From Desulfobacula sp. (lineage in GTDB: Bacteria; Desulfobacterota; Desulfobacteria; Desulfobacterales; Desulfobacteraceae): 64,000 nucleotides of DNA. The stretch covers positions 1 through 64,000 of the forward strand of contig NZ_JAQYWD010000001.1 of assembly GCF_030145145.1 (NCBI RefSeq), in the 5' to 3' direction. The notes under the pieces were generated by a model. That model did no database searches, was not told where the DNA came from, and saw only the letters and a program-made list of their open reading frames with translations. Numbering within the stretch: position 1 is the stretch's first letter; the number at the start of each line of letters is the position of its first letter. The position numbers and the translations under genes were made by a program. This document shows positions 4,039 to 24,696 of this stretch, in pieces.

Positions 4039-4073
4039 ACAACAATCTTTTACAAAATAAAAAGCGAGAATTT

Positions 4074-7143: not shown

Positions 7144-7461
7144 ATGACACCTGTTTATACCGATGCCTCATCCGCCATTCTCCTGGAAAGAATCAAATTG
7201 TTTGAACCATTGACCCGGGTATTTAAGGTTGTCCTGGCAACTTCCGTATTTTACGAGATCACAAAACCAGGAAAATACGGCGCAACATCCTTTACAGAAG
7301 GCCTTCGTCAAGGCCAGTTTGTCGTTTATCCCCCTTTTAACTCTGAAAATTTTAAGGCCTCCCCTGACACAGAACATCTGGACAGGGGAGAAAAGGAGAA
7401 TAAAAATTTCAACGGAATAGAATTCACCCGGTTTGTCGCTGACTTACCACAACGGGGTTAA
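7144..7461 (+). pseudogene. Truncated PIN-domain protein remnant
   Basis: About 105 residues resembling the first two thirds of a PIN-domain ribonuclease: YTDASSAILL with the first acidic residue, then a VVLATSVFYEIT segment, then a LDRGEKE segment. After that the frame loses resemblance and runs into the end of mftF on the opposite strand, with which it overlaps. The last catalytic acidic region of a PIN fold (usually 130-150 residues) is missing. No antitoxin gene is nearby. The likely reading is a decayed gene; a short functional protein cannot be excluded. Confidence 0.45.
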
Positions 7462-8902
7462 CCGCACGGAAAGACTTGTGTTGAATACATCCAAACCACA
7501 CGCCTAGCTGATAGGAAATCTGTTCCAAGGAAAAATAAAACAGAAATCCAAAAATATTCAATTCCGGTTTTTTTAAAACATACTCTGTCAGACCCGATAG
7601 GCAATGGACAAAAATAAAGAGGATGGACACCCATGGAAAGATCAACAGCACCGGAACAAACCAGATTAAATAATACCGGGAAACAAATGAACAGCAATGA
7701 TAAAATAATGCGGCATAACTACGAACAATGGCTGAAAAAAGGTCAAATGCACGAACAGGTATCCGGCCCTGCTTGATTTGGGCCTGTTTTGTCATCCCCT
7801 CTGCAAGAACGATGAGGGGGCAAAGGAATAAGAACGGCAGATATGAAAAAACAATGGACAGCAGGACCACAGACCAGAACAATGATCCCCAAACAGGTAA
7901 AAAGAACTGCTTTCTCCGATTCTGATGCAATATCTGTAAAAGGGGTTCTGAGGTACCATACTCAAACCGTCTGCGGCAGAAAGGACGTATCTTGTTGCGG
8001 TGCCTATGAAAAATTTTGCCAATGGGCCTGAATTCCACCGGATGGCCTGCATCCTGCAATCGCCAACACAAGTCAACATCCTCTCCCACCACAAGCGCCT
8101 CATTAAACCCGCCAATGTTAAGAAACAGATCCCGCTTTACCAGAAGATTGCACGAGGGAACATAAAAAAAATTTTCATTTTCCCGGGATCTTTTTGCATG
8201 GGTTCCCATCATCAAGGATGACTTGACCTGTTCATATTTATCCAGGGGACTTGTGTGGAAAAAACTGTCTACCCGGCCCCCAACAGCACCGATAGAAGGG
8301 TCTTTAAAGGCGGGAATCAATTCAGATAACCATAGGGGATCCGCCGTACAATCTGAATCTATAAACGCCAGAATATCCCCTTTGGCTTTTTGAGCTGCCA
8401 GGTTCCGGCAGAACGGGGCTTTTTTGTTTTCCGCTAACGCGATAAGATGGACATTAAATTTTTTGATGATGTCCGGTGTATGGTCGGTGGATGCATCGTC
8501 CACCACAATGATTTCAATTTTTTCCGAAGGATAGGTCAGCCGGGCCAAAGACTCAAGGCAGGCAGTGATTTCTTCCGGTCGGTTTTGAACAGGAATAATG
8601 ACAGACACATACGGATACGACGTCATCCGAGCAATCCCTTCCTGTTCAAGAAATCCTTTGCGAACCAGATCATTTAAAAAAAGTTCAACGCTTTCAGGAT
8701 CAATGGCCCTGCAGCCGCTCACAATTTTTTCCAGCGGGATAAACCTGTTGGACGACAACAGCGCAAAAGCCCCCTTCCAGGCAGCATGAAGCCGTATGGA
8801 TTTTAAAGGAAAACTTCTGACCAAAACCAAAGACGTATCGTTTTTTTGACAGCTCACTTTTTCAGGCAGTTTATATGCCAGTGGTTTTAAATATGGATCC
8901 AT
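7424..8902 (-). CDS. mftF: Mycofactocin biosynthesis glycosyltransferase MftF
   Basis: A 492-residue membrane-anchored family 2 glycosyltransferase. In mycobacteria MftF adds glucose units to the mycofactocin core. A short N-terminal winged-helix-like region (residues 1-90) precedes the GT-A domain, as in other MftF proteins. The catalytic domain opens with VSVIIPVQNRPEEI near residue 98, and shows VDDASTD, the metal-binding FIDSDCTAD and the VGEDVDLCWRL loop. The last third has several hydrophobic helices. It is the final gene of the minus-strand operon starting with mftA, 12 bases after etfB. The call rests on architecture plus the presence of mftA, mftB and mftC. Confidence 0.85.
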   Translation of the reverse strand: MDPYLKPLAYKLPEKVSCQKNDTSLVLVRSFPLKSIRLHAAWKGAFALLSSNRFIPLEKIVSGCRAIDPESVELFLNDLVRKGFLEQEGIARMTSYPYVSVIIPVQNRPEEITACLESLARLTYPSEKIEIIVVDDASTDHTPDIIKKFNVHLIALAENKKAPFCRNLAAQKAKGDILAFIDSDCTADPLWLSELIPAFKDPSIGAVGGRVDSFFHTSPLDKYEQVKSSLMMGTHAKRSRENENFFYVPSCNLLVKRDLFLNIGGFNEALVVGEDVDLCWRLQDAGHPVEFRPIGKIFHRHRNKIRPFCRRRFEYGTSEPLLQILHQNRRKQFFLPVWGSLFWSVVLLSIVFSYLPFLFLCPLIVLAEGMTKQAQIKQGRIPVRAFDLFSAIVRSYAALFYHCCSFVSRYYLIWFVPVLLIFPWVSILFIFVHCLSGLTEYVLKKPELNIFGFLFYFSLEQISYQLGVWFGCIQHKSFRAVNPVVVSQRQTG

Positions 8903-8914
8903 CTGCCAGCTGTA

Positions 8915-9790
8915 CTATTTTGATTTCTGAGTTTGTGCAGGGGTTAAAAAACCGTGTTCCTTTAAAAAAGAAATCATGCCGGTCACCTGAAATTCAGGGC
9001 TGCCATCTAATATTTGGGTCTTTTTTTTCATCCGACTACCGGTCAACAACAGTTTGATACGATCAAATGATGCTAAATCACTGTCGGGAGCAAGCGTTCT
9101 TTTCGTCCGTGGGCAAGGAGGAGAAATATAAGACGTCACCATACTTTTCCCCGTAGAAGCATCGGAAAGACCCGTCACGTGATGAACCGGCTGGATATCG
9201 GCCCTTGCCTGGGCCTTTAACGTCGGCATTCTGAACCCATAAGCCCCCATGTCCACACTAAAAACCGCCGGCAGACACGATTGAAGGATTTGTCTGGCAC
9301 CCCGACCGCAGCTTCTTTGCACAACCGCCGTCTTGTTATCATTAGACATGTTAAGGGTCTCTATGGCGGAGACAAAGGGCTGGTTTAAAAATTCGGCTAA
9401 AAAACATGCCACCTGGCCATTTTGACGATCCATGGATTCCTTGCCGCACAATACCAGATCAGGGGCCAGCGTCTCTAATGCCCTGGCCAGAAATTTCGCC
9501 TTGTCCTGAGATCCCAGAGAGGCGCTTTGCTCAATCTGATAGAGATAATCCGCTCCCAGGGCCAGGCATCTCTTCAGTTCATCTTCTACGATAACAGGTC
9601 CCAGGATCAAAAGGATAATTTCAATATCCGGGTGTTTATCTTTTAAGGTTAATGCGATCTCCAATGCGGCTTCATCATAAGGATTTATCCGAAAAATTTG
9701 ATCTTCAGGAGCCAAATAATGTGTTTCAGCATCCACCCCTGTTTGTGCATAGGTTTGACAAATCTGTTTGATGCAGACAATTATTTTCAT
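8915..9790 (-). CDS. Electron transfer flavoprotein beta subunit, mycofactocin-associated
   Basis: A 291-residue EtfB-type protein beginning MKIIVCIKQI, with the INPYDEAALEIAL segment of the family and the GKESMDRQNGQVACFLAE nucleotide-binding region near residue 115. ETF accepts hydride-derived electrons from flavin dehydrogenases and passes them on. Here its alpha partner is encoded 6 kb away at 15863-16930, on the other side of the Hmc genes, an unusual split within one operon. The setting suggests it links the flavoenzymes at 16986-20887 with the fused HmcE-HmcF-like subunit encoded just upstream; that direction of flow is inference. Confidence 0.88.
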   Translation of the reverse strand: MKIIVCIKQICQTYAQTGVDAETHYLAPEDQIFRINPYDEAALEIALTLKDKHPDIEIILLILGPVIVEDELKRCLALGADYLYQIEQSASLGSQDKAKFLARALETLAPDLVLCGKESMDRQNGQVACFLAEFLNQPFVSAIETLNMSNDNKTAVVQRSCGRGARQILQSCLPAVFSVDMGAYGFRMPTLKAQARADIQPVHHVTGLSDASTGKSMVTSYISPPCPRTKRTLAPDSDLASFDRIKLLLTGSRMKKKTQILDGSPEFQVTGMISFLKEHGFLTPAQTQKSK

Positions 9791-9820
9791 GCAACCCCCA
9801 TTCTTTTGTTTCTTAACTTC

Positions 9821-11776
9821 TTATCCAATGGATGATGCCACCATCTCAATAATATCCACTGCCTCGACCGGTTTTTTGGGTTCAGCGGCATTGATGCCGT
9901 CATCCAGCATGGTCAGGCAATACGGGCAGGCAGTGACGACCATATCTGCCCCTGAATCAACAATTTGCTCGGCCCGGATATGATTGATATGACGTCCAAT
10001 AGAATCATGGAGCCACATTTGACCGCCACCGGCACCACAACAGAACCCATTCTCACGACGGTGTTCAAGCTCTTTAATCTCAATCCCGTCAATGGCCCTG
10101 CTGATTTTTCGGATTGGCTCAACTATTTTATTCACTCTTCCCAGGTAGCAGGGATCATGAATCGTCAGCAAACTTTTCCGGGGATATCTGGGTGTAATTT
10201 TATTTTCCTTGATTAAGGATTGAACCAGTTCACTGGCATGCATCACATCAAACTGCCCGCCAAGGTCCGGGTACTCATGTTTAAGACTATGAAAACAATG
10301 CGGACACAGGGTCACGATTTTTTTAAACGTATATTTTTTTATTTCATGGATATTGTTCTTAGCCAATGAATTAAACACGGTTTCCTGCCCTAATCTTCTG
10401 GCTTGATCACCGCAGCAACGTTCCTTTTTCCCCAAAACCGCAAATTCAACCCCTGCATGAATTAAAATCCTTACCATGGAACGGTAAACTGTTGTGTATC
10501 TCGGGTTGAATGCGCCGGAACACCCCACCCACAACAGCACATCTGTTTGAAAATGATCCCTGGATAACACAGCAACCTCATTATCTTGGATCCAGTCAGT
10601 CCTGTGGGCCGGTCCTTTTCCATGGGTGTCACCAAACAGCTCCAGATTACGAATCATGGGCCGCACTTCTTTAGGTAAAGCGTTCTCACACATCGTCTGG
10701 TGCCGTCGCAGATCAATGATTTTATCCACAGGATCCGTATAAACAGGGCAGTGATGGACACAGGCCATGCAGGTTGTGCAGGACCAGATCTCGTCATTGC
10801 TGATGATGGTATTCAAACCCTCCGTATTTTTCCCATTGCCTTGTTTAATTTGTCCAAAAATTTTCTGTAATATTTTTTCAGGATACAGGGGTTTTCCGGC
10901 AATGACGGCAGGACAGTTTTCAATGCATTTACCGCAGGACACGCAGGCTTCAGCATCCAGAAGCTGTTTCCATGAAAGACTGGCAATGGTATTGAAACCT
11001 GTTTTTCCCTTTGCAATGGTACCCAGTTTACCCATCTGACGTTTGGGCCAGTATACTATATTTATGGTGGATGCAGACACATGGCGCAAAAAACCGGATG
11101 GCATTAAAACCGCGGCCCCTGCCAACACAAGAAAAAAATGAGCGTTAAGGATGAACTGCAAGCCTGGCGAAGACCGGGGCAGGATAAGTGACGCCATCGA
11201 ACCAACAGGCCATGCCCATTCCGGCCCTTTTGCATAAAAACCGGTTATGACCAGACAAAGACCCATCAAACCGGCAATCAAAAAACGATGGAAAATAATT
11301 TTCTCATAATTAAATTTTTTATTTAAATATCTAAGGATAAATAAACCAATGCTGAGCAAAAGCGTAACCAAAAGGATCTCTCCTGAAAGGATGTGAAAGA
11401 CCAGCCAGAAATGATAATTATCCGTATGATGGTGTGCGAGAAATCCCGTTATAAAAGGTGCGGCAGCCAGGAGCAAAAGCCAATAGTTAGATGCGCCTGT
11501 TAAGTCGTTGATGTTTCTTAAAACAAGCCGTCGTATTAAAAAAATAAAACAGCAGATAATAACCAACAACGTTAAAGCATCCGTAACGCTTTCGGGTAAG
11601 CTTGGCCAGCCAAACCCCCATGTGGTTTTCAGCAGGATAACATGGGCGTTTAAAAAAAAGGGTATTACAATAAACCCTGCATGAAAAATTAACGTTGCCA
11701 CCGTCATAACAGGACGTTTTATCGTCCAGTGCAGTATGGATTTCAAACTGTATTTTAAACTCATAACAGGATACAT
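9821..11776 (-). CDS. Fused HmcE-HmcF-like membrane iron-sulfur subunit (NarI plus HdrD domains)
   Basis: A 651-residue protein with two parts. Residues 1 to about 240 hold six hydrophobic helices of NarI/HmcE type. From about residue 277 come two 4Fe-4S motifs (CVSCGKCIENCP and, near residue 330, CTTCMACVHHCP), then two CCG-type cysteine domains (CCGDQARRLG near 453 and CCGAGGGQMW near 580), as in HdrD/HmcF. Such proteins move electrons between soluble carriers, quinone or thiol-disulfide couples and the membrane complex. In Desulfovibrio the Hmc operon encodes these parts as separate genes. Its position between hmcD-like and etfB genes suggests it is the cytoplasmic docking point for ETF. 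Confidence 0.88.
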   Translation of the reverse strand: MYPVMSLKYSLKSILHWTIKRPVMTVATLIFHAGFIVIPFFLNAHVILLKTTWGFGWPSLPESVTDALTLLVIICCFIFLIRRLVLRNINDLTGASNYWLLLLAAAPFITGFLAHHHTDNYHFWLVFHILSGEILLVTLLLSIGLFILRYLNKKFNYEKIIFHRFLIAGLMGLCLVITGFYAKGPEWAWPVGSMASLILPRSSPGLQFILNAHFFLVLAGAAVLMPSGFLRHVSASTINIVYWPKRQMGKLGTIAKGKTGFNTIASLSWKQLLDAEACVSCGKCIENCPAVIAGKPLYPEKILQKIFGQIKQGNGKNTEGLNTIISNDEIWSCTTCMACVHHCPVYTDPVDKIIDLRRHQTMCENALPKEVRPMIRNLELFGDTHGKGPAHRTDWIQDNEVAVLSRDHFQTDVLLWVGCSGAFNPRYTTVYRSMVRILIHAGVEFAVLGKKERCCGDQARRLGQETVFNSLAKNNIHEIKKYTFKKIVTLCPHCFHSLKHEYPDLGGQFDVMHASELVQSLIKENKITPRYPRKSLLTIHDPCYLGRVNKIVEPIRKISRAIDGIEIKELEHRRENGFCCGAGGGQMWLHDSIGRHINHIRAEQIVDSGADMVVTACPYCLTMLDDGINAAEPKKPVEAVDIIEMVASSIG

Positions 11777-11836
11777 CTTTCTTTACCATTCACCTGTAAA
11801 AAGGGATTTTGATTCTGTAAATAAGAGGGCATATAC

Positions 11837-11971
11837 TTATTCATCTTCTTGGTTTCCTGTTAAAAAGAACCAGAACCAAACCATACCGATCAATGACATT
11901 CCCATAATAATATAGAGTGTATTTTCCGTATGCAGCATGTAATCTTGAAGCGTATACATCATGTTTTCCAT
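11837..11971 (-). CDS. 44-residue membrane peptide, HmcD-like
   Basis: A small gene, ATG at 11971 and TAA at 11837-11839. The product has a short polar N-terminus, one hydrophobic helix (LYIIMGMSLIGMVWFWFFL, residues 19-37) and an acidic end, NQEDE. It lies 18 bases after the NrfD-like gene and 60 bases before the HmcE-F fusion gene. That is exactly where the Desulfovibrio Hmc operon has the tiny hmcD. Sequence similarity in such short peptides means little, so the assignment rests on size, topology and position. Confidence 0.7.
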   Translation of the reverse strand: MENMMYTLQDYMLHTENTLYIIMGMSLIGMVWFWFFLTGNQEDE

Positions 11972-11989
11972 TTGTCTTGTTCCGGCGTA

Positions 11990-13195
11990 TTAATGGTTAT
12001 TTGTAAAATCAGGGTGGTCATAAAAAACCGGCATTCTTGTAACAATAAATCTGAAAACAAGAACCAGGCAGGTTACCATAAAGATAGAAAGCATCACTTC
12101 CATCCAGGAGGGAATATATTTTTCACTTAACGGCTTTTGCCAGTTAAAGGTTATGATGCTCACATTAAGCCTGTTTAAAACAATGCCAATAATGGATAGA
12201 ATTGCAGCAGATTTTATAAAACCAGGGTTTTTATCCCGAAAGCCGATGGTAAAAAGAAGACAGGGTAAGGCAACAAAGCCAAACACTTCCACAAGAAACC
12301 AGATGCCATAAGGGGTCCCAAGAAGGGTCCAGTGATTGCCGGCGGCAACGCCCATCAGTTTTATGATAAAATATCCAAATAATACCAGGGCCGCTGCTTT
12401 TGCATATCCAAAAACAAGGGGGTCATGCGCTTCAAGATAGGGCTTACCCATGTTTGAATGAAATGCCCTATGGGAAAGGGAACTTTCAAAGATGACCATT
12501 GATAACCCTGCAATGATACTTGATACAAAGAAGAATACGGCAATATATGGCGAATACCAGAGGGGATGAACCTTTGATGGCGCTATCAGAAAAAGCGCGC
12601 CAAGGGAGGACTGGTGTAATGTTGATAAAACAACGCCAAATATGGTGAGCATTATGGTTAATTTTACGGCAATGGTACGGGCTTTTCGCAATCCCAGCCA
12701 TTCAAGGGGTATGGGCGAAAATTCAAGAAAAAGAACCAGAAGATAAAGCATGACACACAACCCCACTTCAAATAAAAGAGAGGTTGTCCCCTGCTGCACA
12801 ATAAAAGGATATGCCATGATCAGACGATCCGGACGTCCCACATCATATAACAAAGATACCAGTACGGTTGCATATCCGAGAAACCCGGTTAAGATTGCAG
12901 GTCTTACAGCAGAATGATATTGTTTCATTCCAAACAGATAACAGGCGGCAGATGTTGTATACCCACCGGCTGCAAGGGCAACGCCACACATAAGATCAAA
13001 GCCGATCCAAAGACCCCATGGCTGGGTGTTGGAAAGGTTTGTCACCGTACCAAGGCCCTTTGTAAACCTTAAAATCGTAAGCAGGAGTCCCACGATTACA
13101 ATCCCCCCGGCAATCACATTAAAGGGCGTAAAAAAAACGTTTTTTTCGTCCATGGCGCCATTTTCTTGTGTTGCAACACCGTCTTGCTCAGACAT
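11990..13195 (-). CDS. NrfD/HmcC-type integral membrane subunit
   Basis: A 401-residue protein with about ten membrane helices, beginning its core with VTNLSNTQPWGLWIGFDLMC and AAGGYTTSAA, motifs of the NrfD/PsrC/HmcC family. These subunits exchange electrons with menaquinone in the membrane. A short acidic N-terminal segment precedes the first helix. Its stop is followed closely by the 44-residue membrane peptide gene, and its start shares one base with the end of the ferredoxin-like gene. Together they make the membrane module of an Hmc-like complex. Confidence 0.9.
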   Translation of the reverse strand: MSEQDGVATQENGAMDEKNVFFTPFNVIAGGIVIVGLLLTILRFTKGLGTVTNLSNTQPWGLWIGFDLMCGVALAAGGYTTSAACYLFGMKQYHSAVRPAILTGFLGYATVLVSLLYDVGRPDRLIMAYPFIVQQGTTSLLFEVGLCVMLYLLVLFLEFSPIPLEWLGLRKARTIAVKLTIMLTIFGVVLSTLHQSSLGALFLIAPSKVHPLWYSPYIAVFFFVSSIIAGLSMVIFESSLSHRAFHSNMGKPYLEAHDPLVFGYAKAAALVLFGYFIIKLMGVAAGNHWTLLGTPYGIWFLVEVFGFVALPCLLFTIGFRDKNPGFIKSAAILSIIGIVLNRLNVSIITFNWQKPLSEKYIPSWMEVMLSIFMVTCLVLVFRFIVTRMPVFYDHPDFTNNH

Positions 13196-14265
13196 CAGGA
13201 GTCCTCCTCAGATTTTGGCGTATCTGTTTTTGTAAGAGCCGCTTTAACCGCTTTTTCTTTTTCTGCCTGGGCTATTATTAACGCATTTTCCTGCTGAATT
13301 TTTGCCGTTTCCATGGCGTGTAAAAGTTGGTCAGCCGCCTTAGTCTCAGCTTCTTGTACTGCCTTTGCAACAGCATGGGCTTTTTCAACAGCTGCTATTT
13401 TCTCCCGCCTTTTTGTCATGCCATACATTCCTGTCAAAAACACCGGCCATAACGCCACAACCATTGGAACAACATGCAACGCACCGGACGTTAATTTTGG
13501 TGCCGGCGTGTTCCCAAGATCCTCTCTCATTCCGGTTTCTTCAAAAGGAACATCGGAAACGTACATCCAGCTTGTTCCGCCCATCTCTTTTTCGCCATAA
13601 ATATGATCAACATAGTGATCCGGATCTTTGCTTATTCTTTGTCTTGCAATTTTAATCAGGTCATTGCGTTTACCAAAGGTTAACGCCTCTTTGGGGCAGA
13701 CTTCCACACAGCCGGGAAGCTCACCTTTTTCAAGCCTGGGAGCGCACATGGTACATTTTACAACTTCCGGCGTAAACGCATCATTATATTGGTATGCCGG
13801 CACTTCAAAGGGGCAGGCAATCATACAATACCGGCATCCAACGCACACACTGGGGTCATATGTAACAGCACCGGACGGCTGTTTTGAAAAAGCGGTTACA
13901 AAACAGACAGAAGCACATGCCGGTTCAAGACAATGGTTGCATTGAATTTTTCTAAACCGAACGCCTTTTGACGTTTCATATTTATTGACAACCGTATAGG
14001 AATCTTCATCTGGTCTGCGTTTGTCATTTAAAATTGACGTATCCTTAAACGGTTTTTCAGGTTCGGGCAGGTTGTTAATCCGATGGCATGCGTCTTCACA
14101 GGATCTACAGCCAACGCATCTTGTTTCATCATGCAAAACACCCAGGCTGTCCGGGTAGCCGGCAAATTCCTTTCCAGCAGATGCATGGGCATTCTTTTTG
14201 CCACTTGTGGTTCCTACACCCACAGCTCCAAGCCATCCTAAAAATTTTCTTCGCGTTATGGCCAT
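13195..14265 (-). CDS. HmcB-type four-cluster ferredoxin subunit with Tat signal
   Basis: A 356-residue protein. The N-terminus has a twin-arginine signal ([15 protein letters not shown]). The core carries four cysteine groups: [38 protein letters not shown] and [16 protein letters not shown] with CVEVCPK, enough for four 4Fe-4S clusters. Near residue 275 is a hydrophobic segment ([18 protein letters not shown]), then an Ala/Lys/Glu-rich coiled coil of about 70 residues. In Hmc complexes HmcB carries electrons between the periplasmic cytochrome and the membrane subunit. The long coiled-coil tail is unusual. Confidence 0.9.
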
Positions 14266-14304
14266 ATCGTCATCTCGTTAATGTATAAAAACTGCATCCT
14301 GATT

Positions 14305-15870
14305 TTATTGTTTTTCCTTGTGGCAGTCCGTGCAGCCCACCTGGTCTATCTTCATCCGGGTATGGCATCCCATACACTGGATATGATATGCACCCATAAT
14401 TCCCGGTCTATCCATGGTGTTTCCATTAAACGGCTTGCCATGACAACTTTTACACCGGCTAGGCGTGTCTGTGGCAGGGGAATGATGGTGGCATCCCAGG
14501 CACAAGGTGCCCGTATCAGCATGGAAATATTGCGCCAGTTTATTCTCTTTTATATTCCGGGCAATGGTGTTGACTATTTTTCCATGGGGGAAGTTGACGG
14601 GTTCATATGTATCAACAAGGTCTTTTAAAATGATGGTTTCCGGGATATTTTTTATATCAATACGTTTAGCTTGAGTGGCCCGGGCTCGCTGTTCAATTAT
14701 TATAGCAGCTGCATTTTCATCCAACGCCTCATCTGTCAGCGGCTGGGTGTGACACATCAGACATGAAGCATTATCAGACTTTCCGGTTTTAGAAAAAAAG
14801 GAATGGCACCCTGCACAATCTATATCATCCTGCATTTTTTGATGGCACCCGGCACAGCTTTGATCCCTGTCCATTTTATGCATTGCCTGCTCCAGGGAAA
14901 CCCCTTTACTTTCCATGGACCCTTCCAGGGTGTGGCAGGTATTACAGGCCGACATTGTCTGGTGATGACACACCCGGCAGGTATCATTATCCTTTTCATG
15001 GCCTTTATGATTAAACGATACAAAATTCATTCTGTTTTTACCTGATTCATCAAGCTCCCTGTTGCCTGTTTTCATGTTCACTACATCCGGCTGATTTCTT
15101 TCCAACCGGGGGACAGGGAAAATTTTTTCTATCCCTTTTTGTGCCAATGGATCATGGCACCCGCCACACCTGAAAGGGCCGGTCTCTTTTTTTTCAGCCG
15201 TTCTTGCGATATGACAATTGATGCAGACGTCATGAACAGCCTGTTCCAGGGAAATGACATTGTTTTCAGACAATTTTTTTTCATGACAGTGTCTGCAGGT
15301 TGTTTCTTCACCTTTTTTATACGTATCGGTTTTGCAATCCGTATGACAGACCTCACATTTTTTATCATAGGCCGTCAAGTGGCGGTAATGAAGAGAGTTA
15401 TCCATTCCCATGGGCGTCCGTGAAGACAAAACCTGAGGATCGGGATCATGACAGTCAGCACATGCAACAGGACCGGTTTTTTGATTTCTGGTTGTATTGT
15501 CTTTATGGCATCCAATACAATTGTCATGAAACGTATCCATGGCATCTTTTCCATTTGTATATTGATACGCCATGAATGTTTGTAATACTTTATCCTCTTT
15601 GATTTTATGACAGGTTTTGCAATCACCCCCTGTCTTTTCAATGGCATCCGTGTGCCTGTCGTGGGGAAAAAAAACCTCTGGCCGCTCAAGATCACCAAAC
15701 GTTTTCATGACATCTATGCGTATCATATCAGATCCCGGGGGGAGGCGTACTGAGGTTGATTCAATGCCTTTTGCAACAGCAACAGCAACAAACAAGATGA
15801 CAATCAAAACCACCAGATTGTGTCGTTTTAATAGTGTTTTAGCGTAGTTTACCATTGTTGCGCTATCCAA
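14305..15870 (-). CDS. Sixteen-haem periplasmic cytochrome c, HmcA type
   Basis: A 521-residue protein with an N-terminal membrane anchor or signal (LVVLIVILFVAVAVAKG) and sixteen CxxCH haem-binding motifs by my count, the same number as in the HmcA cytochrome of Desulfovibrio, which is of similar length. It should lie in the periplasm, where Hmc exchanges electrons with type I cytochrome c3 or hydrogenases. Its gene overlaps the end of the ETF alpha gene by 8 bases and precedes the ferredoxin subunit gene. That tight order ties a periplasmic multihaem wire to the mycofactocin enzymes. Confidence 0.93.
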   Translation of the reverse strand: MDSATMVNYAKTLLKRHNLVVLIVILFVAVAVAKGIESTSVRLPPGSDMIRIDVMKTFGDLERPEVFFPHDRHTDAIEKTGGDCKTCHKIKEDKVLQTFMAYQYTNGKDAMDTFHDNCIGCHKDNTTRNQKTGPVACADCHDPDPQVLSSRTPMGMDNSLHYRHLTAYDKKCEVCHTDCKTDTYKKGEETTCRHCHEKKLSENNVISLEQAVHDVCINCHIARTAEKKETGPFRCGGCHDPLAQKGIEKIFPVPRLERNQPDVVNMKTGNRELDESGKNRMNFVSFNHKGHEKDNDTCRVCHHQTMSACNTCHTLEGSMESKGVSLEQAMHKMDRDQSCAGCHQKMQDDIDCAGCHSFFSKTGKSDNASCLMCHTQPLTDEALDENAAAIIIEQRARATQAKRIDIKNIPETIILKDLVDTYEPVNFPHGKIVNTIARNIKENKLAQYFHADTGTLCLGCHHHSPATDTPSRCKSCHGKPFNGNTMDRPGIMGAYHIQCMGCHTRMKIDQVGCTDCHKEKQ

Positions 15871-16930
15871 TATCCTTTAATTGAATTAATCGTTTGATCA
15901 AAAGCGGCAGGATCAGGTCAAAGTCACCAACGATACCAAGAGATGCAAATCTGAATATCCTGGCCCTGGCATCCGTGTTTATGGCAATAACCTGTTTTGA
16001 TTTCTCAATGCCTGCAGTGTATTCATTTGCACCTGAAATCCCACAATTGATAATCAGACGTGGCGTGACAGTCTTACCGGTTTGGCCGATCTGCCGTTCA
16101 AAAGGCAGATCACCCCTGTCAATAACCGGCCTGGTGCCGGCAACGGATGCACCCAGAAGACGTGCCAGCTCATAAACGGAATCCAGAGCGGTTTCATTGC
16201 CAGCCTGTTTGCCAACCCCTCTTCCTATTGCAAGTATGATATCTGCCTCGGTAATATCCAGGTTTTCAGGCTCAGCTTCAATGGTGCTGATAATTCTGGT
16301 TTTAAAATCTTGTTCCTCGTTTTGCTGTAAATCGATTTGATGGATCACTATATTATTTTTCTCGTCCCGATATCGTTCCTGGTCCGGTTCACGTCCTGAT
16401 GACACCAGCACATTTGGGAGAAGTGTTACAATTAAAGACGTCCTGCAATTGTAAGTCCGTGTTTCAAACAGATGGCCGTTGGCTATGGGGCGTACCGCTG
16501 TTGGAATTTGATCATTAACACTCAGATCCACCGCCCGGGTAACAACCTGCAGTTGTAACATTGCAGCAAGCCTGGGGGCTAAATCAGCCGTGTCCGCATC
16601 ATGGGCCATGAGAAAAAATAGGGGTCTCTCTTTTTCCATCACCCCGGACAAAGCGCGGGCAACAGACTCACCATGATATGTTGACGCTGAAGATCCCTTA
16701 AACTGAATGACCCGATCAACGCCACATCCACCCAGTAAATTTAACGGGTTGGCATTTTCCTGATCATCATCCAATGGGTCGTTTAAATCAATTCCCATGG
16801 CAATGGCCACAATGGAAACCGTATCCGCCATATCAGCTGCCAGTTCTCTTGCTTCCTGCACAAGCCCAAAGGTGATATCATCAATCAGACCATCTCTTTG
16901 ATGGATCCAGATCCAAATAGTATTTTTCAT
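15863..16930 (-). CDS. Electron transfer flavoprotein alpha subunit, mycofactocin-associated
   Basis: A 355-residue EtfA-type protein. The C-terminal FAD domain is clear: GTRPVIDRGDLPFERQIGQT, then CGISGANEYTAG, then AINTDARARIFRFASLGIVG. The N-terminal domain is more divergent and begins KNTIWIWIHQRDGLIDD. The beta partner lies 6 kb downstream at 8915-9790. It follows the OYE gene by 55 bases and overlaps the 16-haem cytochrome gene. ETF in this setting probably accepts electrons from the flavoenzymes or from reduced mycofactocin. Confidence 0.9.
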   Translation of the reverse strand: MKNTIWIWIHQRDGLIDDITFGLVQEARELAADMADTVSIVAIAMGIDLNDPLDDDQENANPLNLLGGCGVDRVIQFKGSSASTYHGESVARALSGVMEKERPLFFLMAHDADTADLAPRLAAMLQLQVVTRAVDLSVNDQIPTAVRPIANGHLFETRTYNCRTSLIVTLLPNVLVSSGREPDQERYRDEKNNIVIHQIDLQQNEEQDFKTRIISTIEAEPENLDITEADIILAIGRGVGKQAGNETALDSVYELARLLGASVAGTRPVIDRGDLPFERQIGQTGKTVTPRLIINCGISGANEYTAGIEKSKQVIAINTDARARIFRFASLGIVGDFDLILPLLIKRLIQLKDIG

Positions 16931-16985
16931 AAAAATAGTTCCGTATTCACATGATCAGATATCATCATTCACCATTCTAGTAAAA

Positions 16986-18944
16986 TCATAAACGCCTGCC
17001 GATACGATGTCCATCTGTAATGGCACTATCTGTTAATCTCGGTGCAAGACAGTCCCCAATACGATAAATTTCTTTACCCGTATCTTTTAACTCAAAATAA
17101 AGACGGTCGTCTGCCATATTTCCGGCAATACAGACAATGGTGTCATACCCCTCAAAATCTATCATTTCATTGGAATAAACGTTAAGCCCCTTGACCAGTG
17201 TCCCCTGGATTTCCAAAACCGCAATATCAGGGGTACAGGTAACCCCTTTTCGGGCCAGGCGCTGACTGGTCAGAAACAGATCCTGCAAGGGTCCCAAAGC
17301 GGATCCGGGGAAAAGGGATGGCACCAGCATATGGACTTTCCTTCCCTGGTTTGCAAGAAATTCTGCTGTGCCAGTGCCATGGTGATGCCCATTTAAGTCA
17401 ATGACCAGAACCGCTGGTCCGGCCATGACCTGACCGGTCAGGATCTGTATACTGTTCACCACCTGGGGGAACTGGTACTGCCCGGGAAACGGATTGTTTT
17501 TTGGCGTTGAACCGGTTGCCACAACAATGGCATCGGGATTTTCTCGTAAAATCATTTCAGCATCAGCCCTGCACCCAAGTCTTACATCAATATCCAATTT
17601 ATTGACCTGGCTGCTCAGCCACCGGGTCACCCCCTGGATCTCCTGACGTCCCGCAGCCTTGGCAGCAATCAGATTCTGGCCCCCCACCGCATCATTCTTA
17701 TCAAACAAAATGACCTGGTGTTTACGCAATGCCGCAACCCTGGCAGCTTCCAGTCCTGCAGGTCCTGCGCCAATGATCACCACCTTTTTGGGAACATCGC
17801 ACAAACTCAAGGTCCCTTTACCCAGCGTTTGTTCATTTCCGGCACACGGTGTCTGCATACAGCCGATGGTGTATCCCATTCCCATGCGGCCAATACATCC
17901 CTGGTTGCAGGCAATGCAGTGACGTATATCTTCTGACTTGCCATAACGGGCCTTGTTGGGAAGGTCCGGATCTGCAATGAGCGCCCGCACCATATTCACC
18001 ATATCTCCCTGACCGTTTTCCAATATTTTTTCGGCAAGATGGGGGTCATTGATGCGATTGGTTGCATACACCGGCAGATTCACCACAGAACGAATACCCG
18101 CAGAAAGCGGGGTGGTATATGCCAGAGGGGTATGCATGGAACCCTCTACAAGGAAAAGGTTATGAAACGTTCCAAGACTGATGTTGATAAAGTCTATCAA
18201 CCCGGCATCATCCAGGCATTTGGCCACTTTTTTTGCATCACGGTGGGTAAGTCCCCCTTTGGGGTGCATCTCATCCGCATTTAACCGGACACCCAGGGTA
18301 AACTCATTTCCAATCGTTTTTCGAACAGCGGCTATGACCTCAAGACAAAACCGCAATCGGTTGTCAAAACTGCCCCCATATTCATCTTCCCTGAAGTTGG
18401 ATGCCGGTGAAAGGAACTGCCGGATCAGGGAACTGTGACCCAGTTGAAGTTCAATACCGTCAAACCCGCCCTCCACGACATATCGGGCACTTTTGGCAAA
18501 ATAGGCGATACATTCTCGGATATCTTCTATTTCCATGGCTTTAGCCATTTCACGGAACAGGGGATCTTTTCCCGGAGAGGGTCCCCAAACCGGCAGTCGG
18601 GAAATTTTTCCGTCCGCCTGCATGCCGTTATGGTTGAGTTGGGCAAATATTTTGGTATCGGTTCCATGAATCGCCCGGGTCAGTTTTAAGAATCCGGGAA
18701 TCACTTCAGGTACAAACGCATCCACTAACTTCGCATAGGCCAGATCAGACGGATGCACGGTCAGTTCTTCGGTGGTGATCAGTCCGCACCCGCCGTTTGC
18801 CCGCTCCATGTAGTAATGGATATGCGCATCACTGATTTGATGGTTTTCAGACAGATTGGTCAGATGGGCTGCAAAATTGATCCGGTTGGGTATGATGGTG
18901 GATCCGATTTTCAAAGGAGAAAAAAGATAGGGATACTCACTCAT
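16986..18944 (-). CDS. FadH/OYE-family flavin and iron-sulfur oxidoreductase, mycofactocin-associated (paralog with four cluster cysteines)
   Basis: A 652-residue protein of the 2,4-dienoyl-CoA reductase/Old Yellow Enzyme type. An FMN barrel (residues 1-340, with RQFLSPASNFREDEYGGSF) is followed by a 4Fe-4S motif (CIACNQGC near 350 and another Cys 12 residues on) and a Rossmann domain (VVIIGAGPAGLEAARVAA). Two OYE families are known to occur only with mycofactocin systems, and this is one of such a pair. The catalytic-loop Tyr that follows the conserved His in FadH is Ser here (LGHSSLIRQ). It overlaps its upstream paralog by ATGA, so the two are translationally coupled. Substrate unknown. Confidence 0.88.
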   Translation of the reverse strand: MSEYPYLFSPLKIGSTIIPNRINFAAHLTNLSENHQISDAHIHYYMERANGGCGLITTEELTVHPSDLAYAKLVDAFVPEVIPGFLKLTRAIHGTDTKIFAQLNHNGMQADGKISRLPVWGPSPGKDPLFREMAKAMEIEDIRECIAYFAKSARYVVEGGFDGIELQLGHSSLIRQFLSPASNFREDEYGGSFDNRLRFCLEVIAAVRKTIGNEFTLGVRLNADEMHPKGGLTHRDAKKVAKCLDDAGLIDFINISLGTFHNLFLVEGSMHTPLAYTTPLSAGIRSVVNLPVYATNRINDPHLAEKILENGQGDMVNMVRALIADPDLPNKARYGKSEDIRHCIACNQGCIGRMGMGYTIGCMQTPCAGNEQTLGKGTLSLCDVPKKVVIIGAGPAGLEAARVAALRKHQVILFDKNDAVGGQNLIAAKAAGRQEIQGVTRWLSSQVNKLDIDVRLGCRADAEMILRENPDAIVVATGSTPKNNPFPGQYQFPQVVNSIQILTGQVMAGPAVLVIDLNGHHHGTGTAEFLANQGRKVHMLVPSLFPGSALGPLQDLFLTSQRLARKGVTCTPDIAVLEIQGTLVKGLNVYSNEMIDFEGYDTIVCIAGNMADDRLYFELKDTGKEIYRIGDCLAPRLTDSAITDGHRIGRRL

Positions 18945-20887
18945 ATGATCTCCCCTGTTCTTCTGGCCTCAAGAATCGCCATGTCAATCCCTCTTGGGGC
19001 AACACTGTCACCGATTCTATAGAGTTCATTCACCATCCCCTTTAACTGGAAATAAAGCGAGTCGTCTGCTTTATCCCCCATGTCCAGGACAATGGTATCA
19101 TAGTCTTTATATTCAATAAATTCATTGGTATAAATATGTCTGGCATGGACAAGATTGCCGTCAATTTTTTCGACCCTGACATTGGTTGTAAAGGTGACGC
19201 CTTTTTGAAGCAGCCGCTGTCTTGTCAAATAAAGGTCTCCGATGGGCGCAAGCCCAATGCCGATAAACAGGTCACTGGTCACCATATCTATTTTTTTTCC
19301 CTGGTCAGCCAACAATTCCACGGTGGCGGTTGCATGGTGTCCCCCATTTTCATCAACAAACAGCACCCGGTCTCCCACGGGAAATTTTTCTTCAAGCACA
19401 TCCCGGACATTGATGACAAAGGGCGGACCATAATTGCCATCAACGGGTTTCTCACACGGGACAGACCCTGTGGCAATTACCACCACATCCGGTTGACCCT
19501 GTTTGACAAACTCTTTTGTCACCTGTGTTTTTGTGACAACCCGGACATCCCTTTTTCCAAGCCGATACCTCAGATAGCGCACCACTTCTTCCATGGGTTT
19601 TCGGCCGGCCGCTTTGCATTGCAGATTGATCTGGCCACCCAAAACCGTATTTTTTTCGTAAAGGGTGACGGTATGACCGCGATGGGATGCCACCCGGGCA
19701 ACCTCTAAACCCGCCGGTCCTGCCCCGACCACCCATACGGTCTTGAAAACATCCGGTTTGATACGGTTTGTTTTGTCCTGATGCTCAAACCCGACCCCGG
19801 GATTTTGGATGCACCCTAAAATTTTTGACTGGTTGATGCGGCCAATGCACCCGTTATTGTCCCTTACACAACTTCTGATCGCTTTTATATCACCGTTAAG
19901 GGCTTTTTCAGGCATTTTAGGATCACAAATGAGATTTCGAATAAATCCAACAACATCAAAATCTTTTTTTCCAATACCTTCATCCGCCATCTTCGGGGAT
20001 GCCATCTGATATCCGCCAATGACGGGCAGGGCGATGGACCCTTTTATCTGTCGGGTGGTTTCCAAGGCAAACTTGTCCGGTGTATGCATGGACGCCATTT
20101 GCATGTGCAGGTTATAATAGGTCCCCACAGCCACATTAATAAAATCCACCTGGGTTGTGCGTTCAAAAATCTTCGCCATTTCACAGGATTCTTCCGGGGT
20201 TATTGCCCCCCAGAATATTTCATCCGCACACAGCCGGATGCCCAATGACACATCCGGGCCCACCTGTTCCCGGACGGCATGAACAACAGCAAGGGGAAAT
20301 CGCATCCTGTTTTCAAGGCTTTGGCCATATTCATCCTGGCGATGATTGCTCAACGGGGATAAAAATTGCCGCAATAATGAATAGGGCCCCATATCGATTT
20401 CAATTCCGTCAAAGCCCCCCGCTACAGCAAGGGCTGCTGATTGGGCAACCGCCATAACAACTGACCTTATTTCATGCAGTTCCATTGATTTGCCTGTTTC
20501 GCCAAAGGCAATATCTGACTGGGCTGACGGTGCAAGACATGCCTTGCGTGTTATGGCGCCACTGCTTTGAAACCCGTGGTGGTTCAGGTTGGCAAACACT
20601 TTGGTCTCATATTCGTGTATGGCCCCGGTAAGGGTTTGAAACCCTTTGATGACCCGGCTATCATAGGCGTCGATCATGGCCTCCCAGGGTCGATCGTCAG
20701 GGTCGATACAAAGTTCGCCAATGATAATAAGGCCGCATCCGCCCTTTGCTCTTTGTCGGTAATAGGCGGTATGCCGGTCACTGACACACCCTTTTTCGGC
20801 AAAGTTTGTCCGGTGGGCCAAAAATCCAATTCTGTTCGGCAGGACCATCTTACCTAAATCAATGGGGCTGAACAAATGATCAAACAT
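18941..20887 (-). CDS. FadH/OYE-family flavin oxidoreductase, mycofactocin-associated (paralog with altered cluster site)
   Basis: A 648-residue paralog of the adjacent OYE protein, with FMN barrel, cysteine region and Rossmann domain (VWVVGAGPAGLEVARVAS). I chose the ATG at 20887, which has AAGGAAGG upstream and aligns with the paralog, rather than the longer frame reaching into mftC. The cluster motif reads CVRDNNGC followed by a Cys: the second cysteine of the usual CxxC is Asp. The active-site loop reads MGPYSLLRQFLSP, so the usual His is Pro, and DEYGG is DEYGQ. The protein may carry an Asp-ligated or three-iron cluster and a different flavin chemistry. Confidence 0.88.
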   Translation of the reverse strand: MFDHLFSPIDLGKMVLPNRIGFLAHRTNFAEKGCVSDRHTAYYRQRAKGGCGLIIIGELCIDPDDRPWEAMIDAYDSRVIKGFQTLTGAIHEYETKVFANLNHHGFQSSGAITRKACLAPSAQSDIAFGETGKSMELHEIRSVVMAVAQSAALAVAGGFDGIEIDMGPYSLLRQFLSPLSNHRQDEYGQSLENRMRFPLAVVHAVREQVGPDVSLGIRLCADEIFWGAITPEESCEMAKIFERTTQVDFINVAVGTYYNLHMQMASMHTPDKFALETTRQIKGSIALPVIGGYQMASPKMADEGIGKKDFDVVGFIRNLICDPKMPEKALNGDIKAIRSCVRDNNGCIGRINQSKILGCIQNPGVGFEHQDKTNRIKPDVFKTVWVVGAGPAGLEVARVASHRGHTVTLYEKNTVLGGQINLQCKAAGRKPMEEVVRYLRYRLGKRDVRVVTKTQVTKEFVKQGQPDVVVIATGSVPCEKPVDGNYGPPFVINVRDVLEEKFPVGDRVLFVDENGGHHATATVELLADQGKKIDMVTSDLFIGIGLAPIGDLYLTRQRLLQKGVTFTTNVRVEKIDGNLVHARHIYTNEFIEYKDYDTIVLDMGDKADDSLYFQLKGMVNELYRIGDSVAPRGIDMAILEARRTGEII

Positions 20888-20898
20888 GAATGCCTTCC

Positions 20899-21915
20899 TT
20901 AACTTGCTATTTTTTTCAAATTGACCAGACATTCAGGGTCAGGCATATTAATATCATGGTAGGTATGGTAAGCCATGGCCGGACATCCTCCTCGACAGAC
21001 ATCAAACCGGGAACAGGTCATGCAGGTTTCCACATTAAGATTCCGCAGGTTTGAAAAAACCATTGAATTATCCCACATATCCTGAAAATCGTCCTTGCGA
21101 ACATTTCCCGCGTGAAACGGGCTTTCCTGCAGAAAGGCACAGGGATATACGTCACCATTGGGTGAAATGCAACAGGTCATTTTAGCTGCCCCGCACATGT
21201 CCAGTCCCTTTCTTCTGCGTTTTTCAGATGTCAGACAAAAAAACGAATCTCCGGTTCTGACAAGGTCATGGTTTTCCAGCCAAAGGGCAAAATTCTCCAA
21301 TTGCCATTTTTCAGGCCCCAGGGTGTCCACACTGTTTTTTGCCCGTCCGGAAGGACGGAACCGGGACACCCTCATTTCAGAACCAAAAGATGCTGCAATT
21401 TTTCTAAGCGCATCCAACTGGGAATAATTGATCCGGGTCAAAACCGTATTAATGCTGAAGGGAACATGATGACGGGCCAGACATGCCATGGCCTGTAAAA
21501 TTTTTTCATAGGTTCCCTTCCCCCGTATCCCATCGTTCACCTGGGCTGTGGCACCGTCAAGACTGACCTGCAGGTAAAGCATTTTCAACCGGGATAACTT
21601 TTTTGCCAGCCGATCATCCACAAGGGTGCCATTGGTGCTCACACAGGTGACCAGTTGTCGATCATGGGCGTATTGCAGCAATTCAAAAAAATCTTCCCGG
21701 AAAAAGGGTTCCCCCCCACCGATGTTCACCTGGAACACTTTCATGTGGGTCAATTGATCGATCAATCGGCGACATTCTGGGGTCGTTAATTCGTCTGCTG
21801 CTGCCACCCCTGAATCAGACAGGCAATGGGCACATTTCAGATTACACTTTAACGTCATTTCCCAGGTAACATTCACCGGTGCCCGCAGGCCCGTTCTAGC
21901 TAATTTAGAACTCAA
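20899..21915 (-). CDS. mftC: Mycofactocin radical SAM maturase MftC
   Basis: A 338-residue radical SAM/SPASM protein. The radical SAM motif CNLKCAHC is at residues 24-31, followed by the VNIGGGEPFF strand. The C-terminal SPASM region has cysteines at CGAAKMTCCISPNGDVYPC and CMTCSRFDVCRGGC for auxiliary clusters. MftC decarboxylates the C-terminal Tyr of MftA and crosslinks it to the preceding Val. The substrate gene mftA and the chaperone gene mftB are directly upstream, mftB overlapping by 11 bases. Length and motifs match the family. Confidence 0.93.
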   Translation of the reverse strand: MSSKLARTGLRAPVNVTWEMTLKCNLKCAHCLSDSGVAAADELTTPECRRLIDQLTHMKVFQVNIGGGEPFFREDFFELLQYAHDRQLVTCVSTNGTLVDDRLAKKLSRLKMLYLQVSLDGATAQVNDGIRGKGTYEKILQAMACLARHHVPFSINTVLTRINYSQLDALRKIAASFGSEMRVSRFRPSGRAKNSVDTLGPEKWQLENFALWLENHDLVRTGDSFFCLTSEKRRRKGLDMCGAAKMTCCISPNGDVYPCAFLQESPFHAGNVRKDDFQDMWDNSMVFSNLRNLNVETCMTCSRFDVCRGGCPAMAYHTYHDINMPDPECLVNLKKIAS

Positions 21916-22180
21916 GAATCACTCCTTTATCAATTAATTGACCCAGGCTTTTTTCTATTTTTTCAAGATACCCGTCAGAAACCGTTGTTTCCCGGCTTTT
22001 TTGTTCCGCCCATTGCCGAAGCGCGCAGTCACTCGTAAAAAAAGACGGGTCGAGAAACGTCCCCACCGGAAGAAAATAGAGGCGTGGCCCCCTCATGGTA
22101 TAAAAAAGAAGGCCAAAATCCTCCTGTCTCACTTGTGTTCCGGAAGATAACCGGTATTTTTTTTCAGATATACATGTCAT
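21905..22180 (-). CDS. mftB: Mycofactocin precursor-binding chaperone MftB
   Basis: A 91-residue PqqD-like RiPP-recognition protein. It shows the conserved pattern VRQEDFGLLFYTMRGPRLYF typical of MftB (a beta-rich N-terminus that binds the leader peptide), then a helical C-terminus ending in DKGVILEF. It sits between mftA and mftC and overlaps mftC. MftB delivers MftA to MftC. Unusually, a 142-base repeat element separates it from mftA. Confidence 0.9.
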   Translation of the reverse strand: MTCISEKKYRLSSGTQVRQEDFGLLFYTMRGPRLYFLPVGTFLDPSFFTSDCALRQWAEQKSRETTVSDGYLEKIEKSLGQLIDKGVILEF

Positions 22181-22207
22181 AATCGACCTACACTTTTATT
22201 GGGGTAA

Positions 22208-22349
22208 CTCAACTTTCGATTTTCAGTTTTAATGGACGGGGTCAGGCTTTTTTATGGTGTTTTTTATCACTATTTTATGACTATACGGTTAAAAAGTGCC
22301 ATAAAGAAAGCCTGACCCCATGTAAAAATGACCCAATCCGAAAATTGAG
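22208..22349. repeat. MITE-like inverted-repeat element, copy between mftA and mftB
   Basis: The element is bounded by CTCAACTTTCG and its inverted copy CGAAAATTGAG. Inside are long imperfect arms: GGGGTCAGGCTTTTTTATGG (22238-22257) and the matching stretch AAGTGCCATAAAGAAAGCCTGACCCC in broken form (22291-22319). It can fold into a long hairpin and encodes nothing. A second full copy is at 36161-36301 and a collapsed one at 1055-1100. In the transcript it lies between mftA and mftB and could act as a processing or attenuation site. Confidence 0.8.
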
Positions 22350-22364
22350 GGGTAACTTATTAAA

Positions 22365-22490
22365 TCAATAAACACCACAAATGCCATCAATGGCCATCTC
22401 TTCAATTTCAATCTCTTCTGTGTCAAAAATATCCTCTGTCTTTTCAATATCCGCTTTGATGTCATTCATCTGATTGTCTTGCTCTTTCAT
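22365..22490 (-). CDS. mftA: Mycofactocin precursor peptide MftA
   Basis: A 41-codon gene, ATG at 22490 and TGA at 22365-22367. The peptide has an acidic, Ile/Glu-rich leader and ends in AIDGICGVY. The IDGxCGVY end with C-terminal Val-Tyr is the hallmark of mycofactocin precursors; those last two residues become the redox-active core. A ribosome site (AAAGGA) lies 11-12 bases upstream. The gene follows a sigma-54 promoter at 22579-22594 and heads the operon with mftB, mftC and eleven further genes down to mftF. It is too short for ordinary gene callers. Confidence 0.95.
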   Translation of the reverse strand: MKEQDNQMNDIKADIEKTEDIFDTEEIEIEEMAIDGICGVY

Positions 22491-24636: not shown

Positions 24637-24696
24637 GTTTGTTCCTTTTTTTGGATGATTCAAAAATCTATTGATACCAATGATGTTGAATGTCTT

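Follow-up and report, generated by a model that had tools for sequence, protein, structure and literature searches.

A mycofactocin gene run of Desulfobacula that includes HmcA–HmcD and an apparent TmcC/EtfD-like chimeric membrane protein

The stretch of DNA analysed here, referred to as the window, comprises bases 1–64000 of contig C23 (238,543 bp) in the genome of a Desulfobacula sp. (5.66 Mb, 89 contigs). On its minus strand, genes for mycofactocin biosynthesis (mft) share a single run with genes for two flavoenzymes of the old yellow enzyme (OYE) type, for both subunits of an electron transfer flavoprotein (ETF) and for subunits of the Hmc transmembrane complex of sulfate reducers. The complete order is a sigma-54 activator, an alcohol dehydrogenase (adh) of the N,N-dimethyl-4-nitrosoaniline (NDMA) type, an aldehyde:ferredoxin oxidoreductase (AOR)-family gene, mftA, mftB, mftC, the two OYE-type flavoenzymes, etfA, hmcA, hmcB, hmcC, hmcD, a gene for a 651-aa membrane Fe-S protein, etfB and mftF. 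The intergenic distances from mftB to mftF range from -34 to +60 bp, with 184 bp between mftA and mftB and 7 bp between etfA and hmcA; around the hmc genes the spacing is -1 to 60 bp and every frame is open. The mft–OYE–ETF–hmc run is genuine, and strand, order and gaps bear out an earlier note on this DNA that had described it as one minus-strand run with gene overlaps. The span given there, 7424–22490, covers the run itself and leaves outside the AOR gene, the alcohol dehydrogenase and the sigma-54 activator upstream. Family calls are bit scores compared with the cut-off of a curated model, given in brackets. The genes from mftA to mftF are as follows.

22365..22490, minus strand: mftA, mycofactocin precursor, ending ...EEMAIDGICGVY; TIGR03969 27.4 (25), variant NF040489 32.1 (30)
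21905..22180, minus strand: mftB, precursor-binding chaperone; TIGR03967 44.9 (33)
20899..21915, minus strand: mftC, radical SAM maturase; TIGR03962 374.6 (265)
18941..20932, minus strand: first OYE/FadH-type flavoenzyme; TIGR03997 729.1 (793.15), below the cut-off, still the best of its kind
16986..18944, minus strand: second OYE/FadH-type flavoenzyme, mycofactocin OYE_2; TIGR03997 836.5 (793.15)
15863..16930, minus strand: etfA, mft-type ETF alpha; NF038209 138 (240), below the cut-off, best of its kind; PF00766 92.6 (27)
14305..15855, minus strand: hmcA, 16-haem cytochrome with 16 CxxCH; NF045713 539.3 (400); likely ATG start at 15855, TTG-started open reading frame from 15870
13195..14265, minus strand: hmcB, Fe-S subunit with a twin-arginine-like N-terminus; NF045715 517.1 (420)
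11990..13195, minus strand: hmcC, NrfD-type membrane subunit; NF045714 621.1 (550)
11837..11971, minus strand: hmcD, 44-aa membrane peptide; NF045712 59.2 (34)
9821..11776, minus strand: apparent chimeric membrane Fe-S protein, aa 1-139 TmcC-like, aa ~173-651 EtfD/EMO-like; two 4Fe-4S motifs, two CCG domains
8915..9790, minus strand: etfB, mft-type ETF beta; TIGR04503 97.1 (200), below the cut-off, best of its kind; PF01012 77.4 (26.7)
7424..8902, minus strand: mftF, mycofactocin glycosyltransferase; TIGR03965 337.6 (280)

MftA, MftB, MftC and MftF all exceed their curated cut-offs, which agrees with the identities proposed in the earlier note and fits mycofactocin biosynthesis. The same applies to HmcA with its 16 CxxCH motifs (no other gene of the run contains any), to HmcB, to HmcC and to the HmcD-like peptide, which stand in the same order as in the canonical Hmc cluster of the genome. 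The Hmc conduit had also been called complete, and this description has to be abandoned: HmcF is missing (47.3 against 750, within the 651-aa protein), and the HmcE model reaches only 125.5 against 275, over aa 7-140, on a truncated part that is nearer to the TmcC of a congener. The run differs from the HmcABCDEF complex in lacking HmcF, in having, where HmcE would be expected, a shortened TmcC-like segment joined to an EtfD-like protein, and in its position among mft and ETF genes. As regards the claimed pair of OYE enzymes and ETF alpha and beta subunits, one OYE passes its cut-off, while the other OYE, EtfA and EtfB are below the mft-specific cut-offs, though the best of their kind. The OYE proteins also remain below the cut-offs of two reductase models, BaiCD at 401 (825) and the long form of bilirubin reductase at 338.5 (750).

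The 651-aa protein had been taken for a fused HmcE–F. That interpretation is ruled out by the sub-cut-off HmcE and HmcF scores given above, by the alignment with the HmcF of the same genome, which is limited to two weak stretches (27% over aa 485-626 and 32% over aa 276-344), and by the 51% match of aa 173-650 to the EtfD-like protein at the same place in the related operon L034. The N-terminal part (aa 1-139) is 60% identical to the TmcC of a congener, and aa 2-139 are 37% identical to the canonical HmcE of the same genome (E 2e-34). The comparison proteins themselves score above their cut-offs (own HmcE 350.7 (275), own HmcF 919.8 (750), congener TmcC 318.1 (240)). On the 651-aa protein the TmcC model gives 129.2 (240) over aa 4-139 only, below the level for TmcC; of the Tmc partners, TmcA, TmcB and TmcD are not found in the run, the TmcB model reaching 72.6 (735) in this protein and no tmcD lying between hmcD and its gene.

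The second part of the protein resembles ETF:menaquinone oxidoreductases of the EtfD/EMO type. It contains 4Fe-4S motifs at aa 278 and 333 and CCG motifs at aa 454 and 579, with PF02754 in two stretches, and thus has the two 4Fe-4S motifs and two CCG domains of EtfD/EMO, accompanied in the run by etfA and etfB. Its best solved relative by sequence is Mycobacterium smegmatis EtfD (9ojn, E 1.4e-85). Hydropathy indicates six hydrophobic segments, of which the first three and most of the fourth lie inside the TmcC-like part, compared with the five-helix domain with haem b of EtfD/EMO. By these sequence comparisons, the protein is a chimera of TmcC-like and EtfD/EMO-like parts fused in frame, which differs from EtfD/EMO in that its first membrane helices appear exchanged for TmcC-like ones and a multihaem cytochrome module is attached.

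The genes that relatives carry between etfA and etfB place this chimera in context. Loci were drawn from an MftC scan of genome contigs (the best 80 of 138 loci, many cut by contig ends, with the slot visible in part of them), from a second set of 15 regions (13 mft loci of other genomes and the two Hmc-type loci of the genome itself) and from a search that used the 651-aa protein as query against 389 genomes of the order, in which at most three candidates per genome were scored. The latter returned 15 other loci in the order with EtfD-like matches of at least 500 bits, the next score being 395.6, and in all 15 a heptahaem-protein match lies beside the EtfD-like gene on the etfA side, L199 keeping an etfA remnant at a contig end. 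In the group with MftC identities of 66-77% (L031-L046), nine loci have an etfA match, and a gene with seven CxxCH follows directly in eight of them (L032, L034, L035, L037, L038, L041, L042 and L043; 43-50% identity); L046, which belongs to this group and has a distant etfA (30%), carries a FixC-like gene in the slot. A further locus, L162, came from another search and has etfA with a five-CxxCH version of the cytochrome. The 15 order loci, one of which (G403) is the contig of L034, together with L032, L035, L037, L038, L041, L042, L043 and L162, constitute 23 distinct cytochrome loci, a set to which L046 does not belong.

In these 23 loci the cytochrome frame contains seven CxxCH in 18 cases and five in three (L192, L193, L162), and two loci (L190, L197) have no single open frame. 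An EtfD-like gene of at least 100 bits is present in 20, the remaining three being cut by contig ends, and an OYE_2 match of at least 400 bits is in view in 18. An mft gene (mftC of at least 200 bits or mftF of at least 100 bits) is in view in 16, eight of which were found through their mftC; G247 and G407, two genomes of the cytochrome set, have candidate MftC loci (L036 and L067). The OYE–ETF–cytochrome–EtfD-like set adjoins mft genes often, not always. Five second-tier EtfD-like loci (up to 395.6 bits), outside the 23, were examined as well: L200 has etfA and etfB with a heptahaem-type and an EtfD-like gene, L201-L203 are without a heptahaem match and L204 is too short. Matches to hmcA, hmcB or hmcC were found in none of the best 80 of 138 MftC loci, the 13 mft loci of other genomes or the 20 EtfD-like regions, the slot being visible in only part of these.

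The probable source of the Hmc and TmcC parts was traced through congeners. Contig C26 of the genome encodes a canonical Hmc (HmcC, HmcE and HmcF above cut-off), and contig C67 carries a Tmc operon (TmcD, TmcC and TmcB above cut-offs). A recent copy of the canonical Hmc is ruled out by the HmcA identity of 38% and by the placement of HmcA in a tree. With at most three candidates scored per genome, the nearest HmcA relatives are those of the congeners G383 and G558 (62-65%), followed by three from another family, f109 (52-56%); in the tree (19 rows) the window, G383 and G558 are grouped at 100/100. The window HmcB is 82% identical to that of G383 and 88% to the part present in G558, and HmcC is 86% identical to that of G383. 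In G383 these genes form a stand-alone cluster, hmcA-hmcB-hmcC-hmcD-tmcD-tmcC-tmcB, with HmcB, HmcC, TmcD, TmcC and TmcB above cut-offs and hmcD present; in G558 the same genes (hmcD unchecked) are split over two contigs. This cluster is the likely source type of the window's hmcA–D and TmcC piece. It differs from the window in that the fetched stretches (19.9 kb in G383) contain nothing that matches the mft, OYE or ETF genes of the window and in that its cytoplasmic subunit is TmcB, not an EtfD-like protein; neither G383 nor G558 (78% complete) has an MftC above the cut-off.

At the DNA level, window 15840-11776 aligns with G383 in one piece at 74%, after which the alignment skips tmcD and continues into tmcC (68%). 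Because the DNA follows G383 from hmcA to past hmcD and then tmcC, hmcABCD and a tmcC piece of the stand-alone cluster type appear to occupy the place that in relatives is held by a heptahaem gene and the first part of the EtfD-like gene. We infer the replacement and its order from this comparison, which suggests that the periplasmic partner has been exchanged and the ETF-facing part kept. Clusters of this mixed build, Hmc genes leading and Tmc genes following (hmcABC(D)-tmcDCB), lie at L218 (9554-17044), L226, L220 and L221, family cut-offs being tested for L218 only.

The mft genes themselves vary among relatives. In the congener locus L160 (G555), mftC is only 54% identical to that of the window, and the genus thus holds at least two mft types. 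Several relatives have another radical-SAM-like gene beside mftF or etfB, 27-28% identical to MftC in the matching part (L185 521-1516, L196 2664-3662, L189 16739-17269).

NCBI model names already tie OYE and ETF genes to mft as recognised neighbours. In the literature searched, with most subscription journals outside the search, no paper pairing mycofactocin with Hmc or with ETF was found, nor any account of how mycofactocin electrons exit in anaerobes; mycofactocin and 'multiheme' co-occur in a Geobacter genome announcement, and mycofactocin with 'sulfate-reducing' returned nothing on topic by title. Haft (2011) placed mycofactocin in Geobacter uraniireducens and in a small number of other bacteria outside the Actinobacteria, in a paper whose text contains none of the terms 'electron transfer flavoprotein', 'cytochrome' and 'old yellow' (PMC3023750). 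The mycobacterial protein MftG links mycofactocin to respiration by re-oxidising mycofactocinol (PMC11778925), which is the role proposed below for OYE and ETF; MftG is a GMC flavoenzyme, in contrast to the OYE/ETF and cytochrome conduit proposed for the window. According to a 2014 study, the cytoplasmic redox partners of Hmc and of Tmc were not known at that time, DsrC or ferredoxin being suggested (PMC4215793); another paper provided context on Tmc only (PMC10553843).

The genes upstream of mftA and the candidate regulatory sites extend the locus as follows.

22918..24663, minus strand: AOR-family gene; PF01314, PF02730
24697..25839, minus strand: zinc alcohol dehydrogenase of the NDMA-dependent (nicotinoprotein) type; TIGR03989 329 (440), below the cut-off
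26060..28012, minus strand: sigma-54-dependent activator with GAF and PAS domains; PF00158 207.5
22579..22594, minus strand: sigma-54-type site TGGCATATATATTGCT, 88 bp before mftA
25915..25930, minus strand: sigma-54-type site TGGCATATATATTGCA, 75 bp before the alcohol dehydrogenase
1253..1268, plus strand: sigma-54-type site TGGCATACATATTGCT, 47 bp before the ATP-binding cassette (ABC) transporter
1316..5952, plus strand: ABC importer of the branched-chain/urea type, made up of a binding protein, two ATPases and two permeases; proposed to belong to the same regulon

The three sites are near-identical. Their shared form, TGGCATAYATATTGCW, is found at exactly three places in the 5.66-Mb genome, namely upstream of mftA, of the dehydrogenase and of the ABC transporter, and a reversed control gave no match, although the pattern was picked after the matches were seen and its rarity is no independent test; allowing one mismatch adds two matches elsewhere in the genome. 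The regions before mftA and the dehydrogenase are partly duplicated (approximately 200 bp, 86%), and because of this duplication their sites do not count as independent cases; neither has a 12-mer in common with the region upstream of the transporter. A loose sigma-54-type consensus scan of the window (up to two mismatches) gave 45 matches against 36.3 expected, and since 8 of 100 shuffles reached 45 it means little on its own. Scans of the window for sigma-70 promoters and terminators stayed at chance level.

Homologues of the alcohol dehydrogenase lie near mftC in several relatives, and six genomes of another genus of the family (L154-L159) have two tandem dehydrogenase genes (70-73% to that of the window) before mftC. 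A relic at 22690-22830 (minus strand, within 22490-22920) starts like mftA (MDDTKADME) and continues like the start of the alcohol dehydrogenase (PNKPYTI); this relic and the copied dehydrogenase promoter are read as rearrangement scars. The plus-strand stretch 1253-7139 comprises the ABC importer and an Na/Ca exchanger-like gene, and the importer may bring in a substrate. Homologues of gyrB and dnaN lie at 37058-40599 (minus strand), possibly close to the replication origin.

Taken together, the locus is probably, as judged with moderate confidence, an alcohol-oxidation regulon in which mycofactocin electrons leave the cytoplasm through the chimeric membrane conduit. The nicotinoprotein-type alcohol dehydrogenase would move hydride from the alcohol to mycofactocin, and the AOR-type enzyme would oxidise the resulting aldehyde. 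Reduced mycofactocin would be re-oxidised by the OYE-type flavoenzymes, with electrons passing to EtfAB, which would in turn reduce the EtfD-like Fe-S part of the chimera. From the membrane part of the chimera, electrons would reach HmcC/HmcB and then the periplasmic 16-haem HmcA and/or menaquinone. Each transfer step, its direction and its partners are proposed from gene content. The earlier note had suggested a route from OYE and ETF through the membrane to the cytochrome; this is the natural reading because of the cytochrome slot, the shared sigma-54-type sites and the in-frame fusion of an Hmc-type part to an EtfD-like protein, and to that extent it is supported, with the incomplete Hmc, the separate occurrence of most Hmc and mft genes and the FixC-like gene found in the slot of 38 of 43 loci on the other side. 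The apparent swap of one multihaem cytochrome for another, with the ETF-facing part kept, is what would be expected if the cytochrome has a real role. A broader proposal, put forward tentatively and at somewhat less than even chance, is that in a group of Desulfobacterota mycofactocin-dependent alcohol oxidation may discharge via a dedicated respiratory branch not described before, OYE–ETF–EtfD-like protein–periplasmic multihaem cytochrome, which the window would have rebuilt by a natural Hmc/Tmc subunit swap.

Several observations weigh against the outward route. The alcohol dehydrogenase scores below its family cut-off (TIGR03989 329 against 440), and it is gene neighbourhood and family names that suggest OYE and ETF as mycofactocin oxidants. 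Neither MftD (best 121.6 against 470.85) nor MftE (134.3 against 172) exceeds its cut-off in the genome, and neither does so in any of 10 further mft genomes from the phylum (two of the ten less than 80% complete), in searches whose controls included no mycofactocin producer and hence no positive control, the MftD model moreover being named for Actinobacteria. An AlphaFold prediction for the chimera is of low quality (mean per-residue confidence, pLDDT, 58; predicted TM-score, pTM, 0.47) and too weak for use. Seven of the 23 cytochrome loci have no mft gene in view, six of them cut by a contig end on at least one side and L193 without one on both sides; L200 (3100-7191) has etfA, a heptahaem-type gene, an EtfD-like gene and etfB, the visible stretch showing no mft genes; the OYE-type copy L190 lies in the same genome. 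The MftC nearest to that of the window among the best 80 of 138 is in L031/L161 (G586:C14; 77%), from a metagenome-assembled genome of Desulfobacula sp. and hence of the same genus; this locus and L033 (74%) end before the slot, and L032 and L034 (74%) carry the heptahaem gene. The Hmc–mft join itself was seen in one genome only, and the idea of a conserved association is rejected. The earlier note had named independent occurrence of Hmc and mft genes as one outcome that would speak against its reading, and synteny indeed finds them mostly apart, the join being seen in the window alone; HmcA passes its cut-off in 198 of the 389 genomes searched in the order, and MftC in 9 of 86 genomes of the family and 7 of 198 of the phylum.

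The absence of MftD and MftE above cut-off in this genome and in the ten others is an observation in its own right, which bears on the route of mycofactocin maturation in the phylum.

The direction of electron flow is not readable from sequence and may be inward. In such a scheme, periplasmic electrons from H2 or formate would pass via HmcA through the EtfD-like part and ETF to drive cytoplasmic reductions by the OYE enzymes, which are related to reductases (BaiCD and the long form of bilirubin reductase, with scores below cut-offs). Part of the chimera is apparently of Tmc type, and the Tmc of D. alaskensis has been inferred to work inwards, Hmc being proposed to work outwards, in the 2014 study (PMC4215793). 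The sigma-54-type site shared with the alcohol dehydrogenase and the adjoining AOR gene, an arrangement also seen in some relatives, point instead to oxidation, the FixC-like gene in the slot of most loci fits discharge to quinone, and inward transfer is considered unlikely.

Discharge to the menaquinone pool, as in EtfD/EMO, with HmcA–D serving as a quinone–cytochrome module or having little effect, is similarly improbable. Among the 43 loci that have both etfA and etfB matches, filtered from the MftC scan and the 15-region set, 38 carry a FixC-like gene (at least 100 bits) between the two, and FixC-like proteins of the L086 kind suggest discharge to quinone; as a feature of the slot this points to quinone rather than to a cytochrome. 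The loci with a FixC-like gene in the slot are mostly of the Geobacter type, with six from another genus of the window's family (L154-L159); the Geobacter-type loci with FadH/OYE and ETF have mftC, OYE_2, etfA, etfB and mftF in the same order as the window, which differs in having hmcABCD, the chimera and two OYE genes. The five loci with both etf genes and no FixC-like gene are L034, L038, L041, L043 and L166, the last being on the same contig as L041. In M. smegmatis EtfD (9ojn), Fe-S clusters and haem b are described as a wire from ETF to menaquinone (PMC13083937), and other proteins of the NrfD family, to which HmcC belongs, have been proposed to interact with menaquinone in the 2014 study (PMC4215793). 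On the opposite side, a multihaem cytochrome lies at the slot in 23 loci with this etfA type, and its counterpart in the window arrived together with the fusion and is unlikely to be idle.

A non-functional recombination scar, in which a chance insertion is decaying, is very improbable. The join was seen once, the run lacks TmcD and TmcB entirely as well as a portion of TmcC, and other scars lie nearby (the duplicated promoter region and the mftA and adh relics before mftA). Against decay, the frames are open, all 16 CxxCH, both 4Fe-4S and both CCG motifs are kept, and gaps are -1 to 60 bp. The pairwise ratios of non-synonymous to synonymous change (dN/dS) against G383 are likewise low (hmcA 0.21, hmcB 0.10, hmcC 0.10, TmcC part 0.21, at synonymous distances of 0.8-1.2), although such pairwise values cannot separate selection before the join from selection after it, nor assign it to a branch. 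An assembly error joining an mft operon to an hmc–tmc cluster is conceivable in a genome of 89 contigs and deserves very little weight: both joins are in register (an in-frame fusion and a 7-bp etfA–hmcA gap) inside a contig of 238,543 bp, and the expected orphans were not found, the genome having only two HmcC above cut-off (the window copy and the canonical one), no second EtfD-like protein of this type among the three of 38 own-genome candidates that were scored, and no second donor-type tmcD-tmcC-tmcB, the match on C67 being to the Tmc operon mentioned above; this holds with the heptahaem gene not having been searched for genome-wide.

The preferred reading, with mycofactocin electrons leaving the cytoplasm through the chimeric conduit, has consequences for both systems. 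The apparent exchange of a cytoplasmic subunit for an ETF-linked one suggests that Hmc and Tmc complexes are modular, with that subunit setting the partner, and if the reading is true, ETF would be the first cytoplasmic partner of an Hmc-type conduit to be identified from gene content. The cytochrome slot offers a testable exit for mycofactocin electrons in anaerobes, and the export of electrons from alcohols would be relevant to syntrophy and, in sediments, to extracellular electron transfer.

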